Positions 1,665 to 38,060 of a stretch of DNA of 64,000 bases are shown here, piece after piece. How positions within the stretch are numbered: position 1 is the stretch's first letter; every line of letters starts with the position of its first letter. The notes under the pieces are model-generated. The model worked only from the letters and a program-made list of their open reading frames with translations, did not search any database and had not been told where the DNA came from. Origin of the DNA: Galbibacter mesophilus (GTDB lineage Bacteria; Bacteroidota; Bacteroidia; Flavobacteriales; Flavobacteriaceae); NCBI RefSeq assembly GCF_023721415.1, contig NZ_JAMQVC010000001.1, positions 1,364,001-1,428,000 on the forward strand. The letters run 5' to 3'. The position numbers and the translations under genes were made by a program.

Positions 1665-1665
1665 A

Positions 1666-2022: not shown

Positions 2023-2078
2023 AATATATTCGTTTTTGTTTTCAATATAAAGGTTCTACCCGTGCAACGGAAGTGCAT

Positions 2079-2495: not shown

Positions 2496-3130
2496 TATCT
2501 ATCAAGATTCTTTTTAATGTTTTTTGCTTTGGTAAAGGCTTCCCAGCCTTCTTTTGCCGCATAGGGGACAATCAACAATGCCGCGACTGGGTCAGCCCAC
2601 CACCAGCCCAACCATTTCACGAGCAGCAGACCTAATAGTACTACCACGGTTTGGTACAGGCAGATAAAAGTGTCCTTGGCATCCGCTAACAGTGCGGGAC
2701 TATCCAGTTTATTTCCATAGTTCCTTTTGTAGTAAATCAAAATGGGATTTACAACCAATGATACCATAAGTATCACAATGCCAATCGTTGACCAAGAAGC
2801 CGTTTCTTGACTAATCAGTTTTGATATGGAATCATAGGATATGAAGGCACAGATAAGCGCAAAGGATATCGCAATGACGTACAGCGTTATCATTTTTCTT
2901 TTCTCTACACGCCTCTCATCGATGCCCTTAATTTCGCCGTGCAATCGCCAGCCCAATGTTCCGGCACTTATTACCTCGATGGTACTGTCAAGTCCCCAGC
3001 CTATCAGCGCCGAACTGTTGGCAGTAAAGCCTGCGATAAGCGATACGACCACTTCGATGACATCATAGATGACGTTCCAAATTTGAAGTGTGCGTGCTTC
3101 CTTTAAATTTTGTTTTCTCTCGTTTTCCAT
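2495..3130 (-). CDS. CDF-like cation transporter
   Basis: A 211-residue inner-membrane protein with about five to six hydrophobic segments. The first segment region has NVIYDVIEVVVSLIAGFTANSSALIGWGLDSTIEVISA, in which the Asp of GWGLDS corresponds to the metal-binding motif in transmembrane helix 2 of cation diffusion facilitators, and LLADAKDT is the second site in helix 5. It lacks the long cytoplasmic C-terminal domain of classical CDF proteins, so it is a short form. Probable role: proton-coupled export of Zn or Co. It starts 4 bp after the adaptor gene and overlaps the regulator gene by one base. Confidence 0.8.
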   Translation of the reverse strand: MENERKQNLKEARTLQIWNVIYDVIEVVVSLIAGFTANSSALIGWGLDSTIEVISAGTLGWRLHGEIKGIDERRVEKRKMITLYVIAISFALICAFISYDSISKLISQETASWSTIGIVILMVSLVVNPILIYYKRNYGNKLDSPALLADAKDTFICLYQTVVVLLGLLLVKWLGWWWADPVAALLIVPYAAKEGWEAFTKAKNIKKNLDR

Positions 3131-3134
3131 ACGA

Positions 3135-4334: not shown

Positions 4335-7300
4335 TATTGTTTGAAATATTGTAGTTCGAAAACTGATTTTAGATAATTGTCGAGCGCATCCAGCGCATCC
4401 ATTTCCGTTTGAATGGCATCTCTGATGATTTGGGTAAAGGCTGCATAATCCACGGCACCTTCCTTGTAGGCAAGTAGTGCGCCTCTGCGTTGCTCTTCGG
4501 CAAGAGGCAAGGCTTTATCCCTGTAAAATTGCCAAGATGTTTCCCACTTTTGATAGGACTGTAAGGACTGCTGATATTCGGATTGCAATTGGCGTTGTGT
4601 ATAGTTAGCATTTGTCCTTGCGATTTCGCTATCGATTTTAGCGGCCTTCGCTTGGCTACGTTCTGTACCAGAAAATAAAGGAATGGAAATACCAGCTTGA
4701 TAGCTGTAAAATCCGCTATTGCCGTTCACTCTTTGAAGTCCGCCCTGAAGATTAAACTTAGGAAGCAAGTCAGAACGGGCTGCATCATAATTTGCCTCAG
4801 CTTCATCAATTTGCCTTTGCGAAAGTTTCAGTTCGGGATGATTTTCCACTGTTGTGGGTATGCCCAATACTACAACTTCACTTTCGTCAAGCGATTTAGG
4901 TACAGTGTAGAAAGTGTCTGAGACCAGCCATAGGTTGAGTTTTTGAAGGGCAATGGCGTAATCGCTTTCGGCCTGTTGCAATTTGTTGCGGATTTGCAAT
5001 GCCTGATTGGTTGCCGATGAATATTCCAAGCGTGAAATGGCTTCTACCTCATAATTGAGCGCAATGGCTTTTTCAAATTGTGAATAGATAGAATCCAGTT
5101 CTTGGTACAGTTCAAATTTCTGCCGTTGCTGATAAGCTTGCGACCACGCCTTTTTAACTTCCTGTTCTACTTGAAGTTCAGAAAGGTCAAGAGCGGTTTC
5201 GGCCAAAGCGATACGTTGCTTTTGCAGTCGCTTTTTCGCACCTATGCCGAATAAGTTGATATTCTGTTGCCCTAAACCAACCAATGTATAAATACCCTGA
5301 CCATCCGATATTTCCTCGCCACCCGTAAACACTTGGGTGTTTCCAAAATCGTAAGCTGTGCCTTTTAGAGCAGTCTGTCTTTGTATTTCCAACTGTTTCG
5401 TTTTCAAGAGCGGATAGTTTTCCTTAGAAATTGTTACCGCTTTTTCCAATGAAATAATTGGCAGGGAATCATTCTGTGGAACTTGCTGCGCTTTCGCAAA
5501 AGCGGAAGTAAATAGCAAACAAACTACTGCCATAGCGGTAGCAAATTTTGGATTCAATTTCGCTTTTCGTTCCGAACGTTTCTCGACCCATTGATAAAAG
5601 ATGGGCAGTATAAAGAGCGTCAAGAGGGTGGAAGTTATCAATCCACCAATGACCACGGTTGCCAAGGGTCGTTGCACTTCCGCCCCTGCGGATGCTGAAA
5701 TGGCCATAGGTAGAAAACCAAGAATGTCGGTAAAGGCAGTAAGCATTATAGGGCGTATCCTTCGTTTAGTACCTTCCACAATCCGGTCTTTTAAATTTGT
5801 TACGCCTTCTTCCTTCAATTCATTAAGACCGCTTATCATTACCAATCCGTTCAGTACGGCAACCCCAAAAAGAACAATGAAGCCGACCCCTGCGGAAATA
5901 CTAAACGGCATATCCCTGAGCCAAAGGGCGAACACACCACCTATGGTGGCCATAGGGATGGCCAGATAAATCATCAGGGTCTGCGGAAAGGATTTTAATG
6001 CAAAATATATCAGGATGAATATGAGCAACAGTGCAATTGGAACCACGGTCTGCAATCGGTCGCTGGCGCGTTCCAGATTCTCGAATGCACCACCATAGCG
6101 TATGTAATAGCCTGCGGGTAACTCAAACTGTGCATCCAGTCTTGCCTGAATGTCCTCGACCACCGATTTTACATCCCGTTCACGGATGTTGATGCCCACA
6201 TACGTTCTACGGTTGGTGTTGTCACGGCTGATCTGCATCGGTCCGGGTTCATAGCTTACTTCGGCGATTTCTCGTAAGGGTATCTGGGAACCGTTGGGCA
6301 GATTGATGAAGAGGTTTTGAACATCCTCGATATCTTTGCGGTTTTCCTTTTGCAACCGAACTACCAAATCGAATCGCTTTTCGCCCTCGAAAATCACACC
6401 TGCCTTACCGCCTGCGAAAGCCGCTTGTACCACACTATTGAGTTGGTTGATTTCCAGACCGTATTGTGCCAGTTTATTGCGGTTGTAGTCGATGGTAATT
6501 TGTGGCAGACCGTCCGTAGCCTCTACTTTCATATCGGCCACACCGGGAACGGTCGCAATGATTTTGCCCATTTCTTCCGCCTTGCTTGCCAGAATGTCCA
6601 AATCTTCCCCAAACAGTTTAATGGCAACATCCTCACGTACACCCGTAAGTAGTTCGTTAAACCGCATTTCTATGGGTTGGGTAAATTCATAATTCACACC
6701 GGGAACTATGCTTATGGCTTCCTTCATTTTTTCGACCAATTCATCTTTGCTTTCCGCAGATGTCCATTCATCACTTGGTTTTAAAATGACGAATACATCT
6801 GCAATATCCATTGGCATAGGGTCGGTAGGTACATCGGCCACACCGATACGGCTGATGATAGTTTCAACTTCTGGAAATTCCGCTTTAACTATTCGTTCTA
6901 TTTTTGTAGTTGTCTCTATAGTTTCCGAAAGGGAACTTCCGGGTTTTAGGATGGCGTGAAAGGCAATATCGCCTTCATCCAACTGTGGGATGAATTCGCC
7001 GCCCATTCTGGTAAAGGCAAAAATTGCAACTGCAAAAAGAGCAATAGCGATACCTATAACCATCTTCCCTTTAGTGAGCGATTTGGTCAATAGCGGTTCA
7101 TATTTTCTTTCAATCCAGTGCACGAATTTATCGCCATACGATTGCTTTTCAGATTTTGGTGGTCTAAGGAATAATGCCGAAATCATTGGAACATAAGTCA
7201 AGCAAAGTAACATTGCACCAATCATAGCAAAGATGAAGGTCAATGCCATAGGCTGGAACATCTTGCCCTCGACACCTTCCAAAGCTAAAATTGGCAGGAA

Positions 7301-8677
7301 GACAATAAGAATGATAAGCTGACCAAAGAAAGCGGCGTTCATCATCTTTTTAGAAGCCTTGGCGGCGATTTCGTCCCTCGTTTCAGATTTCACGGCCTTC
7401 TTTTTGACTACATAAGAATACATTAGGAAAACGGTACTTTCCACAATGATGACAGCACCGTCCACGATAATACCAAAATCAATCGCCCCTAAACTCATCA
7501 GGTTTGCCCACACGTCAAACACGTTCATCAGTATAAATGCGAACAACAGCGATAGGGGAATGGTGGATGCCACTATTAGACCACCGCGCCAATTCCCTAA
7601 GAGCAAGACCAAAACAAAGATTACTATGAGGCCACCTTCCAAAAGGTTTCCGGTCACAGTTCCTGTAGTTTCGGCAATCAATTCGCTACGGTCAAGGAAT
7701 GGTTTTATGCTTACCCCATCCGGAAGGGATTGCTGAATCTGTTCCATCCGTTGGGTTACGTTTTCGATGACTTCGTTTGAATTTGCGCCTTTCAGCATCA
7801 AAATCATTCCGCCTACGGCTTCACCCTTACCATCTTTGGTCAGCGCACCATAGCGCACGGCACTTCCTATACTTACATTCCCTACATCCTTTATTTTTAT
7901 GGGAATACCGTTGACCGTTTTTACGACCATATTTTCGATATCCGAAACGGTTCTGGCAAGTCCTTCGCCACGGATAAAATTAGCTTGATGGTTTCGCTCG
8001 ATATATGCACCGCCCGTATTCTGATTATTGTTTTCCAAAGCCGAAAACACTTCAGATATTGTAATTCCGATGGCGCGAAGTTCGTCAGGGTCAACGGCTA
8101 CTTCGTATTGTTTTTTATTTCCGCCAAAAGCATTCACTTCCACAACGCCAGTAACCATTGCCATTTGTCTGCGGACTATCCAGTCCTGAATCGTTCTGAG
8201 TTCCGTTGCAGAATATTCGCCTTGGTGCTCATCATCGACTTCAAGGGTATATTGGTAGATTTCGCCCAATCCCGTTGAAATGGGTCCCATTGCTGGTTCG
8301 CCAAAACCCATCGGAATTTGTTCCTGTACCTCAGTAAGTCTCTCGGCAACGAGTTGTCTGGGTAAATAGGTTCCTAAATCATCGTCGAAGACAATAGTTA
8401 CTACAGAAAGACCAAAGCGGGAAACCGAACGGATTTCCTTGACATTGGGCAAGTTGCTCATTGCCAACTCGACAGGATAGGTCACAAATTGCTCAATATC
8501 CTCTGTTCCCAGATTGGGCGATTGTGTAATGACCTGTACCTGATTATTGGTAATATCTGGCACGGCATCAATAGGGACTTGGGTCATACTGTAAATGCCA
8601 GCACCAATTAATGCAAGCGTGAGCAGACCAATTATAAATTTGTTATTGATTGAAAAATCAATGATTTTATTAATCAT
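4334..8677 (-). CDS. CusA/CzcA heavy-metal RND pump fused to a TolC-type outer-membrane channel
   Basis: A 1447-residue fusion. Residues ~1-1045 are a heavy-metal-efflux RND permease: the N-terminus MINKIIDFSINNKFIIGLL, two large periplasmic loops and twelve membrane helices, with the proton-relay helix segment GAIDFGIIVDGAVIIVE near residue 400. Residues ~1075-1447 are an outer-membrane factor with long coiled-coil helices and repeated GI-SIPLFSG type strands. At the junction (~1050-1072) a basic stretch is followed by a hydrophobic segment ending AKAQQ, which looks like an internal signal peptide and suggests the channel may be released by cleavage. Such fusions are common in Bacteroidota. 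A standalone CzcA is about 1040 residues. Confidence 0.93.
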   Translation of the reverse strand: MINKIIDFSINNKFIIGLLTLALIGAGIYSMTQVPIDAVPDITNNQVQVITQSPNLGTEDIEQFVTYPVELAMSNLPNVKEIRSVSRFGLSVVTIVFDDDLGTYLPRQLVAERLTEVQEQIPMGFGEPAMGPISTGLGEIYQYTLEVDDEHQGEYSATELRTIQDWIVRRQMAMVTGVVEVNAFGGNKKQYEVAVDPDELRAIGITISEVFSALENNNQNTGGAYIERNHQANFIRGEGLARTVSDIENMVVKTVNGIPIKIKDVGNVSIGSAVRYGALTKDGKGEAVGGMILMLKGANSNEVIENVTQRMEQIQQSLPDGVSIKPFLDRSELIAETTGTVTGNLLEGGLIVIFVLVLLLGNWRGGLIVASTIPLSLLFAFILMNVFDVWANLMSLGAIDFGIIVDGAVIIVESTVFLMYSYVVKKKAVKSETRDEIAAKASKKMMNAAFFGQLIILIVFLPILALEGVEGKMFQPMALTFIFAMIGAMLLCLTYVPMISALFLRPPKSEKQSYGDKFVHWIERKYEPLLTKSLTKGKMVIGIAIALFAVAIFAFTRMGGEFIPQLDEGDIAFHAILKPGSSLSETIETTTKIERIVKAEFPEVETIISRIGVADVPTDPMPMDIADVFVILKPSDEWTSAESKDELVEKMKEAISIVPGVNYEFTQPIEMRFNELLTGVREDVAIKLFGEDLDILASKAEEMGKIIATVPGVADMKVEATDGLPQITIDYNRNKLAQYGLEINQLNSVVQAAFAGGKAGVIFEGEKRFDLVVRLQKENRKDIEDVQNLFINLPNGSQIPLREIAEVSYEPGPMQISRDNTNRRTYVGINIRERDVKSVVEDIQARLDAQFELPAGYYIRYGGAFENLERASDRLQTVVPIALLLIFILIYFALKSFPQTLMIYLAIPMATIGGVFALWLRDMPFSISAGVGFIVLFGVAVLNGLVMISGLNELKEEGVTNLKDRIVEGTKRRIRPIMLTAFTDILGFLPMAISASAGAEVQRPLATVVIGGLITSTLLTLFILPIFYQWVEKRSERKAKLNPKFATAMAVVCLLFTSAFAKAQQVPQNDSLPIISLEKAVTISKENYPLLKTKQLEIQRQTALKGTAYDFGNTQVFTGGEEISDGQGIYTLVGLGQQNINLFGIGAKKRLQKQRIALAETALDLSELQVEQEVKKAWSQAYQQRQKFELYQELDSIYSQFEKAIALNYEVEAISRLEYSSATNQALQIRNKLQQAESDYAIALQKLNLWLVSDTFYTVPKSLDESEVVVLGIPTTVENHPELKLSQRQIDEAEANYDAARSDLLPKFNLQGGLQRVNGNSGFYSYQAGISIPLFSGTERSQAKAAKIDSEIARTNANYTQRQLQSEYQQSLQSYQKWETSWQFYRDKALPLAEEQRRGALLAYKEGAVDYAAFTQIIRDAIQTEMDALDALDNYLKSVFELQYFKQ

Positions 8678-8739
8678 AGATAAGGGTGTTAATTCAGTTT
8701 AAATTCTCTGTGGGCGCATTACAGAAATGCAACGCACTA

Positions 8740-8772
8740 TTTTGACATATCCAAAATAAGGACACGTCAAAA
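8740..8772 (-). promoter_or_regulatory. Intercistronic stem-loop before the RND pump gene
   Basis: Arms 8740-8752 and 8760-8772 pair over 13 positions (TTTTGAC end pairs perfectly; the inner part contains one mismatch and one G-T type pair) around a 7-nt loop. An outer inverted repeat AATTCAGTTT (8691-8700) / AAACTGAATT (8794-8803) encloses it. It lies between the DUF6660 stop and the pump start and may be an attenuator or processing site that tunes expression of the large fusion protein; the function is inference. Confidence 0.5.
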
Positions 8773-8801
8773 CAGGAAATAGCTATCCTATGAAAACTGA
8801 A

Positions 8802-9110
8802 TTATACCTGTGGGGGCTGTAAAAGGGAATGGGGAATATCTTTGCCAAGATTATCAAAATGGGCAAAAAATTTGTTTGGAATTGCAGGCTGTAGCGTTTC
8901 AAAAGCAACAAGCCCAAAGTTTATGGTGTGAACGTGGCAGCAATGACATTGGCAGAAAGGCGAGCATAACTCGCAATCCTGGTCGTGTTCGCCATCAAAG
9001 TCAATTACCGTAACAACTTGGGAATCACTTTCGTTATTCGCCGAGTCGCTGCAAGGGACAACATTAAGTGCCAAGAAGTAAAAGGATAATATGATTGCTA
9101 AAAATTTCAC
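8802..9110 (-). CDS. DUF6660-type small secreted protein, metal-operon leader gene
   Basis: Starting at the GTG at 9110, this gives about 102 residues: a signal peptide (VKFLAIILSFYFLALNVVPC), then an Asp/Glu-rich segment and a dense Cys/His cluster DCELCSPFCQCHCCHVH, an evident metal-binding patch in the periplasm. Similar small proteins precede CusA-like pumps in Flavobacteriaceae. I prefer the GTG because the upstream ATG at 9158 lies before a good -7 box (9115-9122), and the GTG begins exactly where the hydrophobic signal starts. It may hand metal to the pump or act as a sensor; its function is not established. Confidence 0.65.
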   Translation of the reverse strand: MKFLAIILSFYFLALNVVPCSDSANNESDSQVVTVIDFDGEHDQDCELCSPFCQCHCCHVHTINFGLVAFETLQPAIPNKFFAHFDNLGKDIPHSLLQPPQV

Positions 9111-9114
9111 AATA

Positions 9115-9150
9115 CAAAGATAAAAGAATTTTGATGCAACTGTGTTGCAT
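9115..9150 (-). promoter_or_regulatory. Metal-operon promoter and palindromic operator
   Basis: On the minus strand a -7 box TATCTTTG (9115-9122) fits TAnnTTTG. Upstream, a perfect inverted repeat ATGCAAC-TGT-GTTGCAT (9134-9150) covers the -33 area, a position suited to a repressor. A half copy ATGCAAC recurs at 8727-8733 before the pump gene. The likely ligand is the Fur-family protein encoded in the operon. The box is only 4 bp from the GTG, implying a leaderless or nearly leaderless message. Confidence 0.5.
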
Positions 9151-9360
9151 AGAAGCAAATCGATTTAGTTGATGTGTGTTTAGTTAAGCTCTTTATTGGC
9201 TATAGATTTTGCGAAACAATTTTTTTAAAATTTTGATTTTTCTTCTTCACATAGATCCATTCGAATAATTTTATAAACCTCCAACTAATGGAAAGATTTA
9301 CTCAATATAAAGAATTTGAGCGTAAAGTTTTATACTTTACTTAAATTGAATTATTGAAGT

Positions 9361-9654
9361 TTATCTGTGTTCATAGCCATCATTTAAAAACTTCCCATAC
9401 TTCTTCTCCACCAATTTGAAAAATTCAGATAATTTAATTCCATGGTTGAAGCACATTGTACTCAATGTAGACAGAGGTATATTGTATCCATCCTTTTGTT
9501 GGATTTTCTCTATAACATGATAATTGACACCGTATAATTTTCCATACTTTCTAGTACTGGTTTCTTTGGAACTCAACCATTCTTCAGTAATGAATTTGCA
9601 AACGTACTTATTGGAAAAATACACCTTACTTTTATTTGTGTTTTTACTTGCCAT
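9361..9654 (-). CDS. Small XRE-like helix-turn-helix regulator
   Basis: A 97-residue basic protein from the ATG at 9654. The segment STRKYGKLYGVNYHVIEKIQQKDGYNIPLSTL (~35-66) reads as an XRE-type helix-turn-helix, followed by a helix with SEFFKLVEKKYG. Small proteins of this kind are typical regulators on Bacteroidota islands. Two perfect palindromes lie just upstream (9683-9710 and 9732-9749), suitable as operators for autoregulation. It is divergent from the sigma/dCas12f operon, so it might also influence that operon; no direct evidence for this. Confidence 0.6.
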   Translation of the reverse strand: MASKNTNKSKVYFSNKYVCKFITEEWLSSKETSTRKYGKLYGVNYHVIEKIQQKDGYNIPLSTLSTMCFNHGIKLSEFFKLVEKKYGKFLNDGYEHR

Positions 9655-9682
9655 CAACACAAATGAAAAAATTATTTGAAAT

Positions 9683-9710
9683 TTTAATGAGAGCGTACGC
9701 TCTCATTAAA
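9683..9710. promoter_or_regulatory. 28-bp perfect palindrome upstream of the XRE gene
   Basis: Perfect dyad centred between 9696 and 9697 (half-site TTTAATGAGAGCGT), 29 bp before the XRE start codon. On the plus strand it is followed by GCTTTTTTT, so it could also act as a terminator hairpin, but no plus-strand gene lies upstream. It is best read as an operator or a protein-binding dyad. Confidence 0.5.
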
Positions 9711-9731
9711 GCTTTTTTTACTATATTTACT

Positions 9732-9749
9732 TCAGAAAATATTTTCTGA
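9732..9749. promoter_or_regulatory. 18-bp perfect palindrome in the XRE promoter region
   Basis: TCAGAAAAT followed by its exact complement ATTTTCTGA, about 80 bp upstream of the XRE start. It is unlike the 28-bp dyad in sequence, so two different proteins, or one protein and a recombination site, may be involved. Confidence 0.45.
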
Positions 9750-9877
9750 TACCAAATATGAAATGTTATGCGCTCACTTATTAGTTCAATGGGCGTAAGG
9801 TGTAGGACTTCTTTAAAGGGGTTCATTTATAAGGGAAATCCCTTTATCATTTTTGAACGAATAAAATACTTTGGGTT

Positions 9878-9994
9878 ATGAAAAATCCAAAAATCAATCA
9901 AACCATTTTAAAATATAAATTATTCAACCTATACGGTATAGGGATAAGCCTATTTGAAATCCTTTTCAAAAAGAAGCCAAAGAACCCGATATAA
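9878..9994 (+). CDS. Possible 38-residue basic peptide
   Basis: An ORF MKNPKINQTILKYKLF... ending KKKPKNPI, strongly basic and lysine-rich, in the 514-bp stretch between the XRE gene and the sigma gene. A weak TACTTTG box precedes it (9868-9874). Nothing recognisable. Apart from this ORF and the two palindromes, I see no other feature between 9655 and 10168. Confidence 0.25.
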   Translation: MKNPKINQTILKYKLFNLYGIGISLFEILFKKKPKNPI

Positions 9995-10168
9995 CTATCA
10001 TTAAATTATAGGATACCCAGTAACACATTAAAATCCGGTACTCATATATTCTTTAGTCCTATAATCCAGGTATTTCCTTTTTCATGGTATCCGGCCATGT
10101 TCCATACATAAAAATTTAATAACAATAATCCAACGTCCATCATCTTGTGATTCAATAACAGGATAGCG

Positions 10169-10996
10169 ATGGCTGTGGAACGGATTATGCATTTAAACAA
10201 CCTAAATATGCAACCATGCAATTTTGAATTATTGAAAAAAGGTGATCCCATTGCTCTGGCCAGGATCCATGCCCAATACGGAAAAAGTATTTTTTGGATC
10301 GGCAAACGCCTGTTGGATGATGAATTTGTATTGGAAACCTTGGTCCAGGATGTATTTTTAAGGCTATGGGACTGCAGGGATACCATTGAAACCCCAAAGC
10401 ATATCTATTTTTTCTTAAGGTTTGTTATGAAAAGGGAGTGTAACTTCTATTATTCAAGGCCAAAGGAGAAGTTTCTTAGAACCTTGAATTCATTGGAGAG
10501 TTACGATAACTACCAGGATTATATGGTAGGCTACGATCCGGAAAATGACAACGAATGTATACGGGAACAGGAACAGACCCAGAACAAATTTGAAAAAATC
10601 GAAAAGGTTTTACCACTGTTAGGTGAGAACAGAAGTTATTTGATCGAACTCTGCCTAAAATATGGCTTTCGATACAAGGCAATCGCCAGTATGTTGGGAA
10701 AGGGTACCACCGAGACCAGGAACGAGACCGCAAGGGCCATTGAAGAGATAAAAACCATTATCCATCTGGGGAACAGATCTGCATTTGAACCAAAAAATAA
10801 GAATGGGCAAGAAAAACCCTCGATTCCTATTACAGAGCTACAGGAAAGGATCCTTGGACTGCGCTTTGAAAAAAAGCATTCGTTTGAACATATTGCTAAG
10901 TCATTGGGTCTTTCCCAAAGGGAAGTGCAAAGTGAATTTGCTTCATCCTACAAATTCTGGCCAAAGTACCGCGAAGAACAGTTAAAATCCGCTTAG
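10169..10996 (+). CDS. ECF-like sigma factor paired with the dCas12f-like gene
   Basis: A 275-residue sigma-70-family protein. Region sigma-2 spans ~27-98: ALARIHAQYGKSIFWIGKRL, then VQDVFLRLWDCRD (the classic QDVFLRLW helix) and a hydrophobic helix FLRFVMKREC. Sigma-4 spans ~142-198 with an HTH (YGFRYKAIASMLGKGTTETR). A further HTH-like segment lies at ~219-265 (SFEHIAKSLGLSQREVQSEF), extra to a normal ECF protein of about 170-190 residues. No anti-sigma gene is adjacent. The start could be 10208 (MQPCNFELLKKGD), which gives the usual ECF N-terminus. The next gene starts one base after its TAG, so the pair is one operon. Inference: the sigma is recruited by the Cas12f-like protein rather than by promoter elements. 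Confidence 0.85.
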   Translation: MAVERIMHLNNLNMQPCNFELLKKGDPIALARIHAQYGKSIFWIGKRLLDDEFVLETLVQDVFLRLWDCRDTIETPKHIYFFLRFVMKRECNFYYSRPKEKFLRTLNSLESYDNYQDYMVGYDPENDNECIREQEQTQNKFEKIEKVLPLLGENRSYLIELCLKYGFRYKAIASMLGKGTTETRNETARAIEEIKTIIHLGNRSAFEPKNKNGQEKPSIPITELQERILGLRFEKKHSFEHIAKSLGLSQREVQSEFASSYKFWPKYREEQLKSA

Positions 10997-10997
10997 T

Positions 10998-12095
10998 ATG
11001 AAAAAAACTACCATAAAGCTAACGCGCAGGATACAGCTATTGGCAGACCTTCCGACAAAGGAGGAAAGAAAAGAAGCTTTGGGTATGCTCTACCAATGGC
11101 AGAACAGGTGCTACCGGGCAGCCAATTTAATTGTTTCCCATCTGTATGTACAGGAAATGATAAAGGATTTCTTTTACCTTTCAGATGGGATAAAGTACAA
11201 ACTCGCCGATGAAAAAAGGGATGGGCATGGGATCTTAAAGCGGTCCCGTATCAATACGACCTATAGAACGGTATCGAACCGCTTTAAAGGGGAAATCCCA
11301 ACCAATATATTATCCTGCCTTAACGGGGCATTGGTTTCTTCCTTTAAAAAAGAGACCCAAAAATATTACAAAGGGGAGCGTTCCCTGAGAAATTTCAGGA
11401 GGGATATGGCCTTTCCATTTAGCATGGAGGGTATAACGAGGTTTGCCTATGATGATAGCAAAAGTGCTTTTTGTTTTCGGCTGTTCAGTGTGCCTTTCAA
11501 AACCTACTTGGGTAGGGATTTTACGGATAAAAGAAAACTATTGGAACGTCTGGCAACTGGGAATATAAAGCTCTGCACTTCGCATATCAAATTAATAAAA
11601 GGGAAAATCTTTTGGTTGGCCACTTTTGAAATTGAAAAGGAGGAGCATGCCTTGAGACCTGAAATAATTGCGGAGGCATCGCTCTCCCTTGACGTCCCTA
11701 TCGTCGTGAAAATTGGAAAGGAGAAGCTTTCCATTGGTTCAAGGGACGAGTTCCTTTACAGAAGGCTCGCTATACAGGCGGCCCGAAAGAGGAGCTGTGA
11801 GGGCACTGCCTTTAGTAGATCGGGAAAAGGGCGTAAGCGAAAACTCAAGGCTATGGAAAAGTTCCGGGAATCGGAAAGTAATTATGTTGACCATCGGTTG
11901 CACGTATACAGCAGAAAACTTATTGACTTTTGCACAAAACACCGTGCGGGAACGCTTATCCTGGTAAACCAGGAAGATAAGATCGGAATGACAAAAGAGG
12001 AAAAATTTGTTTTAAGGAATTGGAGCTACTACGGTCTGATGACCAAAATAGCATTTAAAGCGGAAAAAGCAGGTATTGAAATGATATCCGCTTAA
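10998..12095 (+). CDS. Nuclease-dead, C-terminally truncated Cas12f-like protein (dCas12f)
   Basis: 365 residues. The N-terminus (MKKTTIKLTRRIQLL) and the helical REC-like region (~20-130) fit Cas12f/TnpB. The RuvC part aligns by eye with Cas12f: LSLDVP (Asp232, RuvC-I), RRLAIQAARKR and GKGRKRKLKAMEKFRESESN (bridge-helix-like basic helix), AGTLILVNQEDKIGM at RuvC-II, then RNWSYYGLMTKIAFKAEKAGIEM, which matches the W-Y-[IL]-FK...GIE segment. The RuvC-II Glu position is Val323. The protein stops right there: the four-Cys zinc ribbon and the RuvC-III Asp are absent. Cleavage should therefore be impossible, while RNA-guided DNA binding may remain. It is coupled to the sigma gene upstream and to a structured RNA region downstream. 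No TnpA or IS ends are seen. Confidence 0.85.
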   Translation: MKKTTIKLTRRIQLLADLPTKEERKEALGMLYQWQNRCYRAANLIVSHLYVQEMIKDFFYLSDGIKYKLADEKRDGHGILKRSRINTTYRTVSNRFKGEIPTNILSCLNGALVSSFKKETQKYYKGERSLRNFRRDMAFPFSMEGITRFAYDDSKSAFCFRLFSVPFKTYLGRDFTDKRKLLERLATGNIKLCTSHIKLIKGKIFWLATFEIEKEEHALRPEIIAEASLSLDVPIVVKIGKEKLSIGSRDEFLYRRLAIQAARKRSCEGTAFSRSGKGRKRKLKAMEKFRESESNYVDHRLHVYSRKLIDFCTKHRAGTLILVNQEDKIGMTKEEKFVLRNWSYYGLMTKIAFKAEKAGIEMISA

Positions 12096-12290
12096 CTGTG
12101 TTTGAGGGTGCTTGTAAACCCGTAGGGTGAGGTCAATGGACACTCACTGAATACCATGGCATAGGTTAAATAAGTTAATAGAAATAGCTGCTTATGGCCG
12201 GTATATACAACCCGTGCGACGAGAACACTTACTTTTTTGAAAGTTATGACTAAAAATATAGAGACTGCATATAGGCCCTCACCCCAGATC
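12096..12290 (+). ncRNA. Candidate guide RNA (scaffold plus guide) of the sigma/dCas12f system
   Basis: Non-coding and highly foldable, starting at the dCas12f stop. Stem 1: GGGT 12106-12109 / ACCC 12118-12121. Stem 2: GTGAGGTC 12127-12134 / GAC-A-CTCAC 12139-12147 with loop AATG. Stem 3: ATACC 12151-12155 / GGTAT 12200-12204, continuing GGCATAGG 12158-12165 / CTTATGGCC 12191-12199. Stem 4: ACTTT 12231-12235 / AAAGT 12240-12244, loop TTTG. ACCC at 12210-12213 could pair with the free GGGT 12125-12128 as a pseudoknot. This resembles Cas12f tracrRNA or TnpB omegaRNA layouts, with the guide expected 3' of stem 4. Both ends and the guide boundary are undetermined. Confidence 0.6.
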
Positions 12291-12938
12291 TTACAATAAC
12301 CAATGCTATCGTGCTTGGTTTATCTACATGGAGTTCAGTTTTTAATCACTCCTGTTTAATATTTATAAAAAATCCACCCCTCGGCCGACCTTCCATTTCC
12401 AAAACGGTCCTTTTTGGTAAGCCCTTCTTGGGGGCCTACGCGGCGAAGTCCCGAAAACGGAAGTCCGGCCCCCCAACACATTTTAAGGGTCCTTAATAAA
12501 AGAAGCCCTATATGGTTCCCGGTACTGCGGAAACCAAGGCAGGCGCCAAAGAATACTAAATCGCCGGCCTTTTGACAGCTCGCTTGACTTCCCGTACGCT
12601 CACTTCCAAACCCCCCGCGATAAGGATTCTTAGAGGCCCCTTATGGAACCCGTCAAGGCTATACGGAGTTTTGTCCATAAATAGGGCATCTACTTCCTTG
12701 TTTTTAGCCCTTGCGGTAAAAACCACGTTGCAGACACTCCCGATTTCCGTCCAAAAGCCTTGACGGAACCCACTTCTTTTATGGTGCTGTGCACGCAAGA
12801 AGGCAAACAAACACCCCTTAAAATGTTGGCTTTTGTTTTGGAAACGATTCAAAAAAGTTCTTAGAAGCGGTTGCCGATATGGAAAAGGGATATTCAGTAA
12901 CAATGCCTGTCTCGTGCAGGCGCTAAAAACAATGTATT
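12291..12938. other. Gene-poor stretch between the guide RNA candidate and ssb
   Basis: No convincing gene. Visible structure: AACCAA/TTGGTT stem (12298-12320), GGAGT 12330-12334 / ACTCC 12348-12352 hairpin that could end the guide transcript, a GC-rich inverted repeat GGGGGCC 12430-12436 / GGCCCCC 12467-12473, and GCCTG 12905-12909 / CAGGC 12917-12921 in the ssb leader. From about 12370 the base composition is clearly more GC-rich than upstream. A 115-codon minus-strand ORF (12556-12903) is open but has no recognisable domain. The stretch may be a conserved non-coding part of the island. Confidence 0.4.
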
Positions 12939-13280
12939 ATGGGCACATTAAAAAATCAGGTTCAGCTTATCGGACATGTAGGGCAGGAGCCCCAGGTGAC
13001 CGTATTGGAAAACGGAAAAAAGGTAGCCAAGATTTCATTGGCGACCAATGAGAACTACAGGGATTCCAAAGGGGAGAAACAGACCAATACCGATTGGCAC
13101 CAATTGGTGGCGTGGGGGAAAATCGCATCCCTTATCGAAGAGTACGTTTTTACGGGCAAGGAGATTGCCGTACAGGGAAAACTCACCTCACGTTCCTATG
13201 AGGACAAGGAGGGCGTTAAACGCTATGTGACCGAGGTAATCGTTTCGGAAATCCTTTTCCTTGGTGGGAACGGAAAGTAG
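12939..13280 (+). CDS. ssb: Single-stranded DNA-binding protein (short, mobile-element type)
   Basis: A 113-residue OB-fold SSB that protects single-stranded DNA during island replication or transfer. N-terminus MGTLKNQVQLIGHVGQEPQV, then TDWHQLVAWGKIASLIEEYVFTGKEIAVQGKL, the standard SSB core, and ending right after the last OB strand (EVIVSEILFLGG). It lacks the flexible tail and acidic DDxPF-like tip that chromosomal SSB uses to bind partner proteins. It lies upstream of the RadC-like gene, with a terminator-like hairpin between them. Confidence 0.92.
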   Translation: MGTLKNQVQLIGHVGQEPQVTVLENGKKVAKISLATNENYRDSKGEKQTNTDWHQLVAWGKIASLIEEYVFTGKEIAVQGKLTSRSYEDKEGVKRYVTEVIVSEILFLGGNGK

Positions 13281-13286
13281 AAGTAT

Positions 13287-13306
13287 GGGCAGGGTAAAAC
13301 CTGCCC
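13287..13306 (+). terminator. Hairpin downstream of ssb
   Basis: GGGCAGG (13287-13293) / CCTGCCC (13300-13306) with a 6-nt loop followed by ATTTCTTT. Probably terminates or attenuates the ssb transcript before the RadC-like gene. Confidence 0.6.
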
Positions 13307-13352
13307 ATTTCTTTAAATGTTTGAAATCAATTTTAATAAAAATAGCATAGCC

Positions 13353-13802
13353 ATGTTGATAAAAGTTAACGAGATACAGCTTTCCTACAGGGAGAGTTTT
13401 TTGACCAGTCTGGAAACCGTTGTTGTGAGCAGTTCCAATGCCGCTAAAGTCCTTTACCAATCCTTCGATATGGATACCATAGCCCTGAACGAAACCTTTA
13501 AGGTGCTTTTGCTGAACCGTTCCAATAGGATAAAGGGCATCTATACCCATTCGGTGGGAGGGATTACGGGTACGGTGGTCGATATAAGGTTATTGTTCGC
13601 GGTGGTGCTGAAAAGCCTGTCCACGGGCATCATCCTATGCCACAACCACCCATCGGGGAAACTCGAGGCCAGTACGCCAGATAGGGAACTGACCCAAAAA
13701 ATGGTAAAGGCGGCCGGTTACTTCGATGTAAAGGTACTCGACCATATTATCCTAAGCCCCAACGGAAGGTATTTCAGCTTTGCGGATGAAGGAATACTTT
13801 AG
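13353..13802 (+). CDS. RadC-like JAB-domain protein
   Basis: A 149-residue protein from ATG 13353 (MLIKVNEIQLSYRESF); an ATG at 13317 is also in frame but adds an unlikely leader. It has the JAB/MPN metal-binding motif HNHPSG and the following region TPDRELTQKMVKAAGYFDVKVLDHIILS, typical of the RadC family. It lacks the N-terminal helix-hairpin-helix domain of chromosomal RadC, as usual for copies on integrative elements. The biochemical role is unknown (the RadC name is historical); its context is the SSB/primase mobility module. Confidence 0.88.
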   Translation: MLIKVNEIQLSYRESFLTSLETVVVSSSNAAKVLYQSFDMDTIALNETFKVLLLNRSNRIKGIYTHSVGGITGTVVDIRLLFAVVLKSLSTGIILCHNHPSGKLEASTPDRELTQKMVKAAGYFDVKVLDHIILSPNGRYFSFADEGIL

Positions 13803-14305
13803 ACCAAATTAGTTATGCGTCCAGCCATTTTAATAGGTTATGGCCTTATAGGTGTGAGATGTCCTAATTAACCAGTTAGTTTGGTTGGATGTAATAAATA
13901 TTTTGTCCCGATCCTGCGATCGTGACAAAATTTGGGTAAGCAAGAGGGTAACACGCTAAAGCGATGTTACGTGGTTTCACGCTTCCTGTTTTACAGTAAA
14001 ACCTCTCGGAGTCTCTATAAACAGGCAGTTCTTTACAGTAAAATTTTAGGAAGTCCAAGGGCTAAATTTGCCATTTGCTGCAAAAACCTTTGGAAGCCCT
14101 GAAAACAGGCAATTTTTTGCTGCAAAAAGTATGGTTTTAGGCCAATGCTGGTTGATTGTGACCAAATTGATAGGAAAGAATAAAAATGAGGCTATCCAAT
14201 TAGATGTTCTTTTTTATTTAAAGACTGAACTCGATAGAAATAAATAAGCAGTATTTCAGGATGGCCATTGTGGCAACAAAAATACATCCATTAATTGCTT
14301 TTCAA
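13803..14305. other. Non-coding stretch with hairpins and an iteron array, candidate origin
   Basis: No gene seen in this 503-bp gap. From 13900 to 13981 there are three hairpins in a row: ATTTTGTC...GACAAAAT with inner CGATC/GATCG (13900-13931), GTAACACGC/GCGATGTTAC (13948-13970) and CGTG/CACG (13970-13981). They are followed by the 42-bp-spaced palindromes described separately. 14141-14305 shows nothing notable. The combination beside SSB and primase genes suggests an origin of replication or transfer. Confidence 0.45.
13989..14128. repeat. Four short palindromes spaced exactly 42 bp apart
   Basis: TTTTACAGTAAAA centred at 13995, TTTACAGTAAA at 14037, TTTGCTGCAAA at 14079 and TTTTTGCTGCAAAAA at 14121. 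Successive centres are 42 bp apart, four turns of B-DNA, so all sites face one side. The first two share the core ACAGT and the last two GCTGC, giving two 84-bp imperfect units; AACAGGCA recurs at the same offset in units 1 and 3. Likely iterons for a Rep, recombination or transfer protein. Confidence 0.6.
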
Positions 14306-15169
14306 TTACCCATCCGTATTCTTAGTCCACCACTCATTTATATCCTTATATCCTTCGTACATTCCCGACCTGTCCAAAGCTTTTGAATGGGCAGTCAATA
14401 GGAATTGCGTTGCCTTTTTACCGGCACCGTCCCTGTCCAGATAAAGCTCAACATGTTTATAGTCTTTCAAATAACCGGGAACCTTTTTTACAAACGCCAC
14501 GGAGTTGAGGACAAGTATATCTGCTCCCTTGGATAGGTTTCGGCAATGACTTGCTAATGTGAGCAGATCGAACATACCTTCGCACACAACCAGGTTAGTG
14601 CATTGATTCATTAATAAGGTTATGTCCTTAGGGGAAACGCTGCCTTTAAAGAATTTGTTCCTGAGCTCATAACCTCCAGAGATGTTTTCAAGCCCGATGG
14701 CAAAATAGTGTTTACCTTTCAACCTGAAATGTACTTCTTCAGCATATAACCTTGCCACTGTAGGTTTAATTTTTCGTGACCTTAAATAGGCTAGCAGGGC
14801 TGGGTGTCTTATCGGTTTTACTTCCGTCACTTCAATACCGGGTTCCTTTCTGGAAAGTGGTTGTTGCTGAAAAGAAAAACTTAAGGCTCCATTGTCCAGG
14901 ACCAGCAAAGCCTCTTTGACCGAACACCGTTTTATCAGGCAGACCAGGTCGATAACATTGCCACCGATACCGGCACCGTGGTCGTACCATCGGTTCAGTG
15001 TCAGGGATACCTTGAAAGAGGCCTCTGTTTCTGACCGGAAGGGGCTTAGGAACCAAGCTTCTTTTTCCGATTTGCGCGTGGGAAAGTGCCCCAGTTTAGC
15101 AAGTGCCTGCACGGTGCAAATACTGCGGGCTTTTTCACACGACAGTTTATTGGTTCTTTCTTTTTTCAT
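14306..15169 (-). CDS. Toprim-domain DNA primase of a mobile element
   Basis: A 287-residue protein. The N-terminal part (~10-90) resembles a CHC2/DnaG-type primase N-domain (FLSPFRSETEASFKVSLTLNRWYDHGAGIGGNVIDLVCLI), although the zinc Cys set is incomplete. The C-terminal part (~185-285) is a Toprim domain: LVVCEGMFDLLTL with the catalytic Glu, and YLDRDGAGKKAT with the DxD acidic pair. Proteins of this kind occur on many Bacteroidota integrative elements beside a primase-helicase. Likely role: priming island replication. It is followed upstream by the TTCATCA iteron cluster. Confidence 0.85.
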   Translation of the reverse strand: MKKERTNKLSCEKARSICTVQALAKLGHFPTRKSEKEAWFLSPFRSETEASFKVSLTLNRWYDHGAGIGGNVIDLVCLIKRCSVKEALLVLDNGALSFSFQQQPLSRKEPGIEVTEVKPIRHPALLAYLRSRKIKPTVARLYAEEVHFRLKGKHYFAIGLENISGGYELRNKFFKGSVSPKDITLLMNQCTNLVVCEGMFDLLTLASHCRNLSKGADILVLNSVAFVKKVPGYLKDYKHVELYLDRDGAGKKATQFLLTAHSKALDRSGMYEGYKDINEWWTKNTDG

Positions 15170-15195
15170 GGGCCGGATATGTTTTTAAAAAAAAT

Positions 15196-15399
15196 TGATG
15201 ATTTGATGAAGAATCTCTTGTAACCCTTATTTTTACTGGTGTTCCGGGCTTCATCATTTTTTCATCATTCATCAAAATGTTCTGCAGATCTTCATCATTG
15301 TTTTAGGATTTCAATTTTGATGAACGTTTGATGAAATTTTGATGAAGTGTTATTTTATTGATTATCAGTTATTTATACTCTTAATTCATCATTTCATCA
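15196..15399. repeat. Iteron cluster: about eleven TTCATCA/TGATGAA copies
   Basis: Copies at 15196 (TGATGAT), 15204, 15250, 15261, 15268, 15291, 15318, 15329, 15340, 15385 and 15393, in both orientations, several 11 bp apart (15318, 15329, 15340), about one helical turn. The cluster fills the gap between the two primase genes and runs into the end of the primase-helicase ORF. Such dense iterons beside a primase-helicase gene are typical of a replication origin. Confidence 0.65.
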
Positions 15400-16586
15400 A
15401 AAATTCCATAAATCTTTTTTCTTTCAACAGCAAAATACCTTCCGACACGGCTGATCTGGACAAACTCCCCGTAACTGGTATATTCATAACCCTTATAGGA
15501 ATTGGAATTGTCGGAAGGGGCAAGCCCCCATTTGTTTTTCAGTATCCTCCGGATGTCGTTCGGTTCGAAGTTTTTGCGGCGCACCTTGGCGAGGTTCGAC
15601 ACGATTTCCCTCGGGGTGACCCTGAGCTCATCGGCACCGGTGGCCTCGAACATTTCGTAGAGCAGGTACACCGTTTCCCTCTCGACCGCATTATTGTTCA
15701 GCCAGACCAGTTTCTTTAGCGCCCTGGTCCTTATCTGCTCGGGGGTGAACCACATCCGTGTTTTCTTCTCGGAGGCATAGGGACGGTCAATAAGGAACTG
15801 TAGAAAAGCGGGTATTTCAGAAATGAGCTTTTGCAGGTATTCGGTGTCCTCGGTATCGAAAGGAGGTACTTTTCTGACCCAAAAACGTATTTCATTGGAA
15901 TCTATCAGGATGAACGTATCCTCATTGTTGCTGCAGAGAATGAACTTCCCGAAGAATTCGACTTCCTCCCGGTCCTTGCCCTTGGCCTCCACCTTGTCCT
16001 TGTCGGTGGTGCTCAAGTATTTTAGCCGTTCGGTGATCTCTTTTTTATCGAAGAACACCTCGTCCACCGCTACGATCACCTTTGATACCCAATCCGCATT
16101 GAACTGTGAGGAAAAACTGTCCCCCTTGATATATGTCATGTTCTGGCCAAATATGGCCTTGAGCCATTTGATAAAGGTGCTCTTTCCAGTGCCACGTTCT
16201 TTACTCACCAGGCATAAGATGGGCAATATCTGTGAGGGGTTTTCATAGAGGATCTTTAGGTAGTCCAGTCCAAGCTCGGCCTGTTCCCCGAAGATGTGCC
16301 CCACAAACCCCATGGAAACGGGGCATTTGCCCTTCTTGGGGGCAATGGGCAGCTCGTGGTAGGTGTTGTAGGAATTGCCAACGGTTTGCCTGTAATCTAT
16401 ATGTTCGGGGATACAGCAGAACCCGTCCAGTTTTGGGATCTTGGAAAGATAGGACTTCCCGTGGTCCGCAATGATCGTTTCCTTGTTCCACCGGACCATT
16501 ATGGAAATGGAATCCCCCGAAATCAGGGGTTTTTCGATATCTTTCCAATATGTGGTCCCGATACGTCTGTACGGTATCTTTTTCAT
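15381..16586 (-). CDS. Primase-helicase family ATPase (island replication)
   Basis: A 401-residue protein with a superfamily 3-like helicase core. Walker A is SKERGTGKSTFIKWLKAIFG (~125-145), Walker B is VIVAVDEVFFD (~170-180), and sensor FILCSNNEDTF follows. A C-terminal winged-helix-like stretch (~320-400) includes TPREIVSNLAKVRRKNFEPNDIRRILKNKWGL. It resembles the primase-helicase proteins of Bacteroidota mobile elements. It would unwind DNA at the adjacent iteron cluster, working with the Toprim primase downstream and the SSB. Complete; the gene starts 27 bp after the excisionase-like gene. Confidence 0.88.
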   Translation of the reverse strand: MKKIPYRRIGTTYWKDIEKPLISGDSISIMVRWNKETIIADHGKSYLSKIPKLDGFCCIPEHIDYRQTVGNSYNTYHELPIAPKKGKCPVSMGFVGHIFGEQAELGLDYLKILYENPSQILPILCLVSKERGTGKSTFIKWLKAIFGQNMTYIKGDSFSSQFNADWVSKVIVAVDEVFFDKKEITERLKYLSTTDKDKVEAKGKDREEVEFFGKFILCSNNEDTFILIDSNEIRFWVRKVPPFDTEDTEYLQKLISEIPAFLQFLIDRPYASEKKTRMWFTPEQIRTRALKKLVWLNNNAVERETVYLLYEMFEATGADELRVTPREIVSNLAKVRRKNFEPNDIRRILKNKWGLAPSDNSNSYKGYEYTSYGEFVQISRVGRYFAVERKKIYGIFDEMMN

Positions 16587-16613
16587 TAGAAAAGTATTTA
16601 AAGTGGATGTTAT

Positions 16614-16907
16614 CTAGGATTTTCCCTTTTTCAGGAGTTGTCTGTTGAATTCATGTTCCAGCTGGTCATCCAACAGTTCGGAGTTCCCCATAAGCCATTC
16701 ATCGATGGCATCCTTATCGAAGAACTTTTGGCGGATGTGTTTGTTGTTGCCCATTGGGATCAACCGCAAATGGGTCAGTTTATAGATTTTGCTTTTGGAA
16801 AGTCCTGTGTATTGTGAAAGGTCTTCCACATTCAGGACCTTTTTGTTCTGGGACAGCAATGCCTTGATGTCCTCCAATAGGGCCACAACGTTCTCTTGCT
16901 CATTCAT
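16614..16907 (-). CDS. Excisionase-like helix-turn-helix protein
   Basis: A 97-residue protein with a MerR/AlpA-type winged HTH: VLNVEDLSQYTGLSKSKIYKLTHLRLIPMG (~18-48) followed by FFDKDAIDEWLMGNSE. This is the standard small DNA-binding protein that precedes primase-helicase genes on Bacteroidota integrative elements and is annotated as excisionase family or HTH-domain protein. It may control excision or expression of the replication genes just downstream, with which it is probably co-transcribed. Confidence 0.85.
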   Translation of the reverse strand: MNEQENVVALLEDIKALLSQNKKVLNVEDLSQYTGLSKSKIYKLTHLRLIPMGNNKHIRQKFFDKDAIDEWLMGNSELLDDQLEHEFNRQLLKKGKS

Positions 16908-17034
16908 TGTTTTAAAATTTTTGGTTAATGATGAGTAAAAGGCCTTTTACGTTTTAGTGTACAGGGCAAATATATGACAGCAGATATTGCCAAATCAATA
17001 GCATAACGGCAGTTATGGTTTAATTATCCATTAA

Positions 17035-17709
17035 TTATTTAAGGGAGAAGACATTTTTCCAATATTGTTCGTAGGCAGTGCCCTTTTCCGTGGAAAGGTC
17101 GCCCTTCCAATTGGAAAAACTGGATTTTAGGGTATCGTAATTAATAGGTTTGCGGTTCATGAGAAAGGAATCCCTGAGCATTTCAAAAAAGATTTTTTTC
17201 TGGACATCGGTAAAGTGTTCAATCCCATCCTGAATAAGTACATGGAACATGGAAAAAAGCATGCGGTGGTTGGCACCTTCCTTGCTTTTGTTCTTTTCGC
17301 GAAAATTTATCTTCTTCTGTACATGCCGGCGGTTCAACAGCAAATTAAAGTCGATAAGCTCATCTTTGTCAAACTTGAGAAGTTCGTAATTAACTGTTTC
17401 CCATTTAACGGAGATATATTGGAACGGGTACAGCCTACTATCCTTGATCCTCTTTTTTTCATAGTAGGTCGCAAATAGTATAATCAATAAAATTCCTATA
17501 AAAAGGTACCCAAAATAGTACCCAAGTTTTTGACCAATGGAAACTTGTGAGCTGAACAGCATGAGCACCAAACCGTAAACGGCGATGCAAACAATTAAAA
17601 AATAAAGGCGGGCACTATTGCTGCTCATGGAACTCCGCCTAAAGAAATGGTCTATGGCGTCATCCAATTTGCACCATAGGATGGCCAGCTTTCTGATTAT
17701 TTTTTCCAT
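17035..17709 (-). CDS. Unrecognised island protein with two membrane segments
   Basis: 224 residues from ATG 17709 (MEKIIRKLAILWCKLDDA). Two strong hydrophobic segments (YFLIVCIAVYGLVLMLF and GYYFGYLFIGILLIILFAT, ~34-78) are followed by a soluble, charged C-terminal domain of about 140 residues. An upstream in-frame ATG at 17856 lies inside the tRNA gene, and its extra residues derive from the tRNA terminator and repeats, so I reject it. I do not recognise a family. It is the gene nearest the tRNA, where an integrase is often found, but it has no integrase catalytic residues. Confidence 0.6.
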   Translation of the reverse strand: MEKIIRKLAILWCKLDDAIDHFFRRSSMSSNSARLYFLIVCIAVYGLVLMLFSSQVSIGQKLGYYFGYLFIGILLIILFATYYEKKRIKDSRLYPFQYISVKWETVNYELLKFDKDELIDFNLLLNRRHVQKKINFREKNKSKEGANHRMLFSMFHVLIQDGIEHFTDVQKKIFFEMLRDSFLMNRKPINYDTLKSSFSNWKGDLSTEKGTAYEQYWKNVFSLK

Positions 17710-17761
17710 TTGAGTGCTTATGTAGGCATCAAGATAAGAAATAAATAAAAAAGCACTTATT

Positions 17762-17780
17762 GTTGTACCTATGTTGTACC
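17762..17780 (-). repeat. Two direct GTTGTACC repeats, possible integrase arm sites
   Basis: GTTGTACC at 17762-17769 and 17773-17780, 11 bp apart, just inside the island end next to the tRNA. Short phased direct repeats beside an attachment site are typical of tyrosine-recombinase arm-binding sites. Inference only. Confidence 0.35.
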
Positions 17781-17792
17781 CAAGGAAATCAA

Positions 17793-17821
17793 AAAAGCCA
17801 CTCAATCTTTTGAATGGCTTT
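17793..17821 (-). terminator. tRNA-Asn terminator
   Basis: On the minus strand AAAGCCATTCA pairs with TGAGTGGCTTTT (plus coordinates 17811-17821 and 17793-17804) followed by a T run. It lies 12 bp after the tRNA 3' end and would end the tRNA transcript. Confidence 0.75.
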
Positions 17822-17832
17822 CTAATGTTAAG

Positions 17833-17906
17833 CTCCCCCTCTTGGGCTCGAACCAAGGACCCTCTGATTAACAGTCAGATGCTCTAACCAACTGAGCTAA
17901 GGAGGA
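17833..17906 (-). tRNA. tRNA-Asn (anticodon GTT)
   Basis: Cloverleaf on the minus strand: acceptor arm TCCTCCT / AGGGGGA, D-arm with TAGCTCAGTTGGTTAGAGC, anticodon stem CTGAC / of loop CTGTTAA with anticodon GTT, and T-arm with GGTTCGAGCC. 74 nt including the discriminator base, CCA not encoded. Its 3' end marks the junction between the island (left) and the core genome (right), a common insertion site. Confidence 0.96.
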
Positions 17907-37979: not shown

Positions 37980-38060
37980 AAAAATAAAAAGGACGGAAGT
38001 TAATCCGTCCTTTTTGCCCCAAATCTTACCATGAACTTAACCTACTTATGCTATGGTATT
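37980..38060. repeat. 81-bp direct repeat, copy 1 (two hairpins)
   Basis: Identical to 38198-38278, offset 218 bp. It holds a perfect terminator-like hairpin GGACGGA / TCCGTCC with A and T tracts, then CCCCAAATCTTACC and an inverted repeat TACCAT...ATGGTA. Both lie in the non-coding gap between the oxidoreductase and purF; the 137 bp between the copies are AT-rich with nothing recognisable. Confidence 0.75.

Follow-up and report, generated by a model that had tools for sequence, protein, structure and literature searches.

A 64,000-nucleotide stretch of the Galbibacter mesophilus genome (assembly GCF_023721415.1, contig NZ_JAMQVC010000001.1, positions 1,364,001 to 1,428,000; here called the window) was analyzed for a putative RNA-guided transcription system composed of an extracytoplasmic function (ECF)-type sigma factor, a nuclease-dead Cas12f homolog (dCas12f), and an adjacent guide RNA. 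The sigma factor gene (positions 10169 to 10996, 275 residues as listed) and the dcas12f gene (10998 to 12095, 365 residues) are both on the plus strand with 1 bp between them, the arrangement described in an earlier note on this DNA. The sigma factor possibly starts at an internal ATG at 10208, since most homologs align only from approximately residues 13 to 22; the alignment of PDB chain 9n9q_C begins at residue 17. Just after the dcas12f stop codon lies a putative guide RNA scaffold of three stems, the third of them expanded (12104 to 12211, plus strand). The conserved ATACAAC end of the scaffold is followed directly by a candidate guide segment, CCGTGCGACGAGAACACTTAC (12212 to 12232, plus strand), and then by a run of T residues.

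The sigma factor matched Bacteroidota ECF models (TIGR02985, E = 1.3e-15; sigma70-ECF, E = 5.9e-14), and its sole PDB match at E ≤ 0.001 was the protein named RpoE, chain C of entry 9n9q (E = 4.7e-86), to which it is homologous across 259 residues. The best PDB match of the 365-residue protein was "Nuclease-deactivated Cas12f" (9n9c, 9n9m, 9n9o, and 9n9q; residues 1 to 363, E = 6e-181), and homologs of both window proteins were solved together in 9n9q. The PADLOC Cas12f model also matched the 365-residue protein (E = 5e-49), while NCBIfam TnpB/Cas12f profiles stayed below their cut-offs (best E = 4e-12) and Pfam OrfB_IS605 gave an E value of only 0.17. Read by eye, the PDB Cas12f sequence is that of the protein from locus L031 of Allomuricauda taeanensis JCM 17757, and we take the four entries to be the dCas12f-sigmaE RNA-guided transcription system of Flagellimonas (Allomuricauda) taeanensis. 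Because both proteins match this one set of structures (the 9n9c/9n9q group), the locus is of a kind that has been studied experimentally. By homology, it adds a new member to the known dCas12f-sigmaE family of RNA-guided transcription systems, in line with the earlier note, which had proposed a member or a relative.

Loss of nuclease function, also part of that proposal, was borne out by comparison with the Cas12f nucleases 9nzo and 9nzr. In the printed alignment, the RuvC-I aspartate of the nucleases (VDLGIN) is opposite a serine in the window protein and the RuvC-II glutamate (QMERL) is opposite a valine; these are the residues of the two motifs that we take to be catalytic. Thirteen dCas12f proteins were aligned, with L072 (internal stop) and L078 excluded. 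EASLSL is invariant among the 13 where the nucleases have GVDLGI, and they share a common C terminus at 363 to 365 residues. The match to 9nzo and 9nzr stops approximately 90 residues short of the end of those nucleases, so that the window protein ends before their C-terminal part. It is 59 to 76% identical to the 12 relatives.

A scan of the genome_contigs collection yielded 121 relatives, and the best 80 of these 121 loci were used for comparison. The sigma gene is upstream of dcas12f on the same strand in 80/80 loci, and the joint conservation of the two genes anticipated in the earlier note was thus found. In 78 of the 80 (coordinates read by eye), the two genes are directly adjacent; the exceptions, L039 and L048, have gaps, and L035 is cut by its contig end. 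A dCas12f match was present in 20 of 397 sampled genomes of the bacterial family, some being just fragments, and distant relatives were found in the plasmid collection (five) and the phage collection (one). The absence of a CRISPR array and of adaptation genes also held up within the regions searched: no direct-repeat array was detected between 8.7 and 17.9 kb, where just two two-copy repeat families occur, and none of nine neighboring proteins scanned gave a PADLOC match to Cas1 or Cas2. No transposase match was obtained among the neighboring proteins scanned, and ends of IS200/IS605 elements were not searched for.

A structured RNA after the dcas12f stop codon had been predicted, and comparison of relatives agreed with the prediction. 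The conserved scaffold, GAGGGTGCTTGTAcACCC..GGTGAGGT..CACTCACTAAATGC..GCATATACAAC, just 3' of dcas12f, was aligned in 40 copies, and the window copy keeps all 23 invariant columns of the alignment. A covariance model (R1) built from these 40 copies, the window copy included, matched positions 12101 to 12216 at 68.9 bits, its sole match in the window at E values up to 1. No second scaffold was found in the genome, where 150 of 716 first-look candidates were scored. The single-sequence fold of the window scaffold region was unremarkable (z = -0.4); the RNA is judged to be real because it is conserved across copies, not because of single-sequence folding. The third stem of the window copy is approximately 40 nt longer than in the other 39 copies.

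Between two and four complete scaffolds with differing guides occur in some relatives; three or four, behind or near dcas12f, were observed in L045, L048, L053, L068, L073, L078, L090, and L104. A truncated second scaffold, in which only the last stem and an ATACAAC-like end remain ahead of another guide-like segment, was seen in L028 (approximately 7230 to 7270) and in L070 (6829 to 6880; 22.3 bits). Such truncated copies resemble a CRISPR-like economy of repeats.

Upstream of sigma, many loci of the family contain a structured leader of approximately 160 nt, here termed R2 (for example, L089:4924-5082). It was recognized by pattern in 47/80 sigma loci, and a model of R2 added three of the remaining 33, with a strong match in L053 and weak ones in L043 and L085; the R2 copies of L090 and L104 are approximately 2.5 and 3.5 kb upstream of sigma, respectively. 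A single R2 sequence folds well (z = -4.5). Two-sided changes were seen in 13 of 31 consensus pairs. An alignment of R2 comprises 37 copies (that of L089 and those of 36 other loci). The right arm of R2 can form a helix with the left arm (98.5% of cells paired, compared with 24 to 53% in slid controls; two-sided changes in 3/11 pairs) or with a third segment (98.5% paired, controls 38 to 66%; two-sided changes in 6/11), and in most rows the third segment is followed by a U-rich run. The pairing percentages are not independent evidence alone, because one set of sequences served to derive both structures; the two-sided changes, counted with kinship ignored, are the better evidence. The two helices share the right arm and would be mutually exclusive, as in an attenuator. 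Rfam searches of R2 from two loci at permissive thresholds gave nothing convincing, only one sub-threshold match each on the opposite strand.

R2 is also found away from the sigma operon. With a model trained on sigma loci, R2 was detected in 69/397 genomes of the bacterial family. By hand tally, it was present in 19 of the 20 genomes where dCas12f was matched, versus 50 of the 377 without a match (Fisher P = 6e-15, kinship ignored), and in 15 of the 20 it occurred away from sigma (Fisher P = 3e-9, kinship again ignored). Among 30 R2 loci taken from the best matches, 4 were sigma loci, 22 had a SusC-like N terminus next (read by eye), and 4 had neither (L114, L122, L128, and L130, the last with a short SusC-like start only). 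Four further R2 loci (L144, L151, L155, and L156) contained SusC/RagA profile matches at E = 2.3e-200 or better, the L144 gene extending past the end of its stretch. Receptor plug domains were identified by profile in L125 and L132, and R2 of L145 precedes an ECF sigma factor and a FecR-like protein. R2 thus appears to precede susC-type receptor genes as well as sigma-dcas12f operons.

Most guides of the family start with (G)GCGTGGGCTCTCTTAT or a similar sequence, and a G-preceded sequence of the GCGTGGGCTCTCTTAT type lies within R2 in many loci. At least one guide matched the 16-nt consensus of the R2 right arm at 12 or more positions in 57/80 loci and at 13 or more in 50/80; for the lower threshold, 1 of 4,000 random 20-mers from the same loci did so. 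Guides were compared with R2 arms of the same genome in a few genomes. A consensus guide together with an R2 leader away from sigma occurs in Sinomicrobium sp. N-1-3-6 (G094), Yeosuana marina (G322), and Cellulophaga baltica (G370), the names being assigned through contig coordinates. In genome G094, one guide, shared by two loci, agreed at 16, 16, 15, and 12 of 16 positions with R2 arms away from sigma and at 14, 15, and 15 of 16 with the three sigma arms; in this comparison the arms of L006, L132, L148, and L151 were misread and that of L149 was incomplete. In G144, the nine leading bases of one guide (GCGTGACATC..) equal a variant arm, G followed by GCGTGACATT, upstream of a gene read by eye as SusC-like, and only 11 of the first 16 positions match; the other three G144 guides fit none of four R2 copies well. 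A G adjoins the guide-matched arm in 36 of the 37 aligned R2 copies, although this does not speak independently for a target motif, because the G is base paired within R2. The comparison suggests the right arm of R2 as a frequent target in the family. Together with the protein homology, it makes it very probable that the product of the window locus is a dCas12f-sigmaE-type activator of transcription guided by RNA and that the R2 arm serves as a frequent target of this family. The question of the natural target, which the earlier note had left open, would in this way have an answer for relatives, namely the R2 leaders before susC genes and sigma; for the guide of the window no target was found.

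By homology, dCas12f would bind the guide RNA without cutting DNA, the guide would pair with DNA beside a 5' G, and the dCas12f-bound sigma factor would recruit RNA polymerase, with transcription starting downstream. A 2025 preprint on dCas12f-sigmaE reportedly describes a short 5'-G motif and activity without promoter elements, and the spacing between the bound site and the transcription start is said to be constant. For the window system itself, we infer RNA-guided activation from this homology. From the comparison of relatives, targeting of R2 would activate nutrient-uptake operons and let the sigma-dcas12f operon regulate itself.

Two other roles for the guide were considered. A dCas12f protein could act as a guide-directed roadblock repressor, while the sigma factor would serve its own promoters independently. 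Repressors are known among nuclease-dead relatives of TnpB, as described for TldR (PMC13418256); like the window system, TldR combines a nuclease-dead TnpB-like protein with a guide RNA for gene regulation. The R2 arm targets also lie upstream of a gene, where a block could repress. However, sigma is linked to dcas12f in every one of the 80 loci and both proteins are in one solved entry, and we regard the roadblock as very improbable. In the second alternative, it is the R2 transcript on which the 3' segment of the guide RNA would act, with or without dCas12f, tipping the leader between termination and read-through. Both R2 helices are paired at 98.5% and covary, the third copy precedes a U-rich run in most rows, and the common guide is the very arm that both helices share; because it copies this arm, the guide RNA could pair with the left arm or the third copy. 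The segment nevertheless occupies the Cas12f guide position behind a scaffold that is kept, arrayed guides differ from one another, and the guides of approximately 18 loci are unlike R2. An effect at the RNA level is, in our view, improbable, and DNA targeting by a transcription activator remains the preferred reading.

Several observations weigh against activation through the R2 arm, both across the family and in the window. Guides near the R2 arm were missing from 23/80 loci, a number that includes four loci with no guide read and one (L081) that was misread. Guides unlike R2 were found in L031, L036, L037, L040, L028 (first guide), L039, L054, L055, L073, L075, L078, L090, and L104, and L031 is the locus whose protein reads like the solved dCas12f. 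Several guides fail to track changes in the R2 arm that lies in cis, no guide of G100, G257, or G329 fits the R2 copies compared, and the G beside the R2 arm also pairs in the second helix. For the window guide, searches of its own genome found no target beyond the locus with 20 nt and up to 3 mismatches (control, 0), with G plus 10 nt exact (control, 0), or with a 12-mer and up to 1 mismatch (control, 6); G plus 14 nt with up to 2 mismatches gave one chance-level site, C1:266449 (control, 2). The guide (21 nt, up to 2 mismatches) was likewise absent from the 396 other genomes of the bacterial family. It was also absent from IMG/VR contigs (19 nt exact), matched plasmids at E values of approximately 4 only, and was not near the leader of a susC gene on contig C2 of the same genome (best, 12/21). 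The guide of the window is, as its sequence reads, diverged from the usual guide of the family, and its target may lie outside its own genome or depend on a shorter seed.

The leader of the window sigma gene differs as well. A search of the window for R2 was negative, its best score being 14.1 bits (E = 0.72), and the sole R2 match of the genome, C5:91859-92020 (L111; 62.4 bits, 150 of 1,049 candidates scored), lies between ParA and small genes. This C5 copy was seen to be a divergent subtype that ends approximately 10 nt before a 77-residue gene, and similar sequences occur in L150 and L157. At gathering thresholds, Rfam identified only tRNA in the window. A stretch at 9770 to 9784 (GCGCTCACTTATTAG) was considered as a remnant R2 target and rejected, since it proved to belong to a different leader when aligned with L070. 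The window and L070 share this non-R2 leader, whose 3' part, termed R3, was matched by its model at 9950 to 10103 (plus strand, 126.4 bits). R3 comprises the end of a small open reading frame (ORF), ...LFEILFKKKPKNPI, and a hairpin with two-sided changes in 3/8 pairs. The small ORF of 38 codons (MKNPKINQ...FKKKPKNPI; 9878 to 9994, plus strand) has a C-terminal peptide that is also encoded ahead of sigma in L042 and L070 and, in other loci, ahead of susC genes; the small ORFs of R3 end in FKKKPKNPI/V just ahead of the stop codon. R3 looks like a leader-peptide attenuator.

The R3 model was built from 13 rows, among them the window copy and a copy on contig C2. R3 was found exactly twice in the genome (150 of 3,782 candidates scored), before sigma and before a susCD operon: the second copy (G000:C2:1144940-1145092, 133.7 bits), first found by DNA similarity to the window (86% over 148 bases), lies ahead of susC (1,017 residues) and susD (472 residues). 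Among the 64 of 80 sigma loci searched, only L042 and L070 had R3, and both are rows of the model; it was also present in 15 of 40 other R2 loci, 6 of these 15 not being model rows. With R3 in place of R2 before sigma and a diverged guide, the window is, by this comparison, an exception in the family.

Such an exception could be a decaying passenger, its proteins intact, its guide target lost, and the system idle in this host. The diverged guide with no target found in its own genome, the failure to find R2 at the locus, and the unusual expanded stem would all fit. Against decay, both ORFs are open, the Cas12f-like protein keeps 59 to 76% identity to the 12 relatives, the invariant scaffold columns are retained, and the leader is common to a susCD operon. 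An idle passenger seems unlikely to us. In the preferred reading, R2 would have been replaced by R3 and the guide would have drifted, and the present target of the guide may lie in another host of the mobile element.

The carriage of the locus on a genomic island, suggested in the earlier note, was supported by an att-like repeat and an integrase. A 43-bp exact repeat of the 3' half of a tRNA occurs at 17832 to 17874, the right end of the element, inside the tRNA gene at 17833 to 17906, and at C1:1345541-1345583, beside a tyrosine integrase. The element so delimited is 36,334 bp long (window 1 to 17874 plus C1:1345541-1364000), with a G+C content of 41.5% versus 37.7% and 38.7% in its flanks. 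Its cargo includes copper and heavy-metal genes (multicopper oxidase, P-type ATPase, and efflux proteins). Besides the sigma-dcas12f locus, the element also encodes SSB, RadC, and a primase-like protein. These features support the view that the locus rides on a mobile 36.3-kb copper-resistance island in a tRNA gene. Candidate links for the window copy would then be the R3-led susCD operon of its own genome, which shares the leader and has no guide match, or the DNA of other hosts.

The position of the family target within R2 leads to a hypothesis on attenuation, which we put forward tentatively, as a possibility to which we give somewhat less than even weight. Transcripts that start past the right arm of R2 would be unable to form the terminator-like helix. 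RNA-guided initiation inside R2, past the 5' half of the terminator, could then bypass a natural attenuator, and a single guide could switch an entire regulon. In this hypothesis, the window copy has escaped from that regulon; it would have kept its leader sharing with one susCD operon (R3) and have had its guide re-aimed outside the host.

Comparison with known systems places these findings. The F. taeanensis system and the window share gene order, scaffold, a 365-residue dCas12f (72% identical to the L031 protein), and a divergent 99-residue gene (85% identical). The window differs in its R3 leader instead of R2, its expanded third stem, its different guide with no target found in its own genome, and its location on a 36.3-kb tRNA-integrated copper island. 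To our knowledge, TldR has no sigma partner, and the window protein is nearer to Cas12f than to TldR by PDB and PADLOC matches. Type V-F CRISPR-Cas has a homologous Cas12f effector (PADLOC, E = 5e-49), whereas the window has no array between 8.7 and 17.9 kb, a single scaffold in the genome, and, in the scan of nine neighboring proteins, no adaptation genes; its protein has lost the RuvC catalytic residues and the C terminus and has a sigma partner. The kind of system is already known, and the link between guide and leader RNA switch is the part most worth following. What engineered CRISPR activation does by design has a natural counterpart in the dCas12f-sigmaE family. Its natural regulon, as suggested by the comparison, consists of SusC-type uptake operons with R2 leaders together with the system's own operon; the comparison also points to a coupling of DNA targeting to an RNA attenuator. 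The window copy, on an integrative element and with no target found in the host genome, should be useful for studying guide retargeting.

Farther upstream of sigma, a palindrome, GAGAGCGTACGCTCTC (9689 to 9704, plus strand), is followed by a promoter-like sequence, TATATTTA; it is common to the L031 locus and was aligned with L031, L036, and L070. The divergent gene (9361 to 9660, minus strand) encodes the 99-residue helix-turn-helix-like protein, which has a weak HTH_psq match. Proteins 84 to 90% identical to it are encoded beside sigma-dcas12f in L070, L031, L036, L037, and L040, and any match to it was found in 9/80 loci; the protein is apparently linked to some members of the family.

A motif behind several guides, ATCTTACC..AACTAATACTAT or CTTACC..AACTAATACTAT, was considered as a part of the system and rejected, as it recurs elsewhere in both orientations. 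The ATCTTACC..AACTAATACTAT form was observed after GCCCC-type runs at window positions 12287, 38022, and 38240 and also in L028, L042, L052, and L070. The copies at 38022 and 38240 look duplicated.

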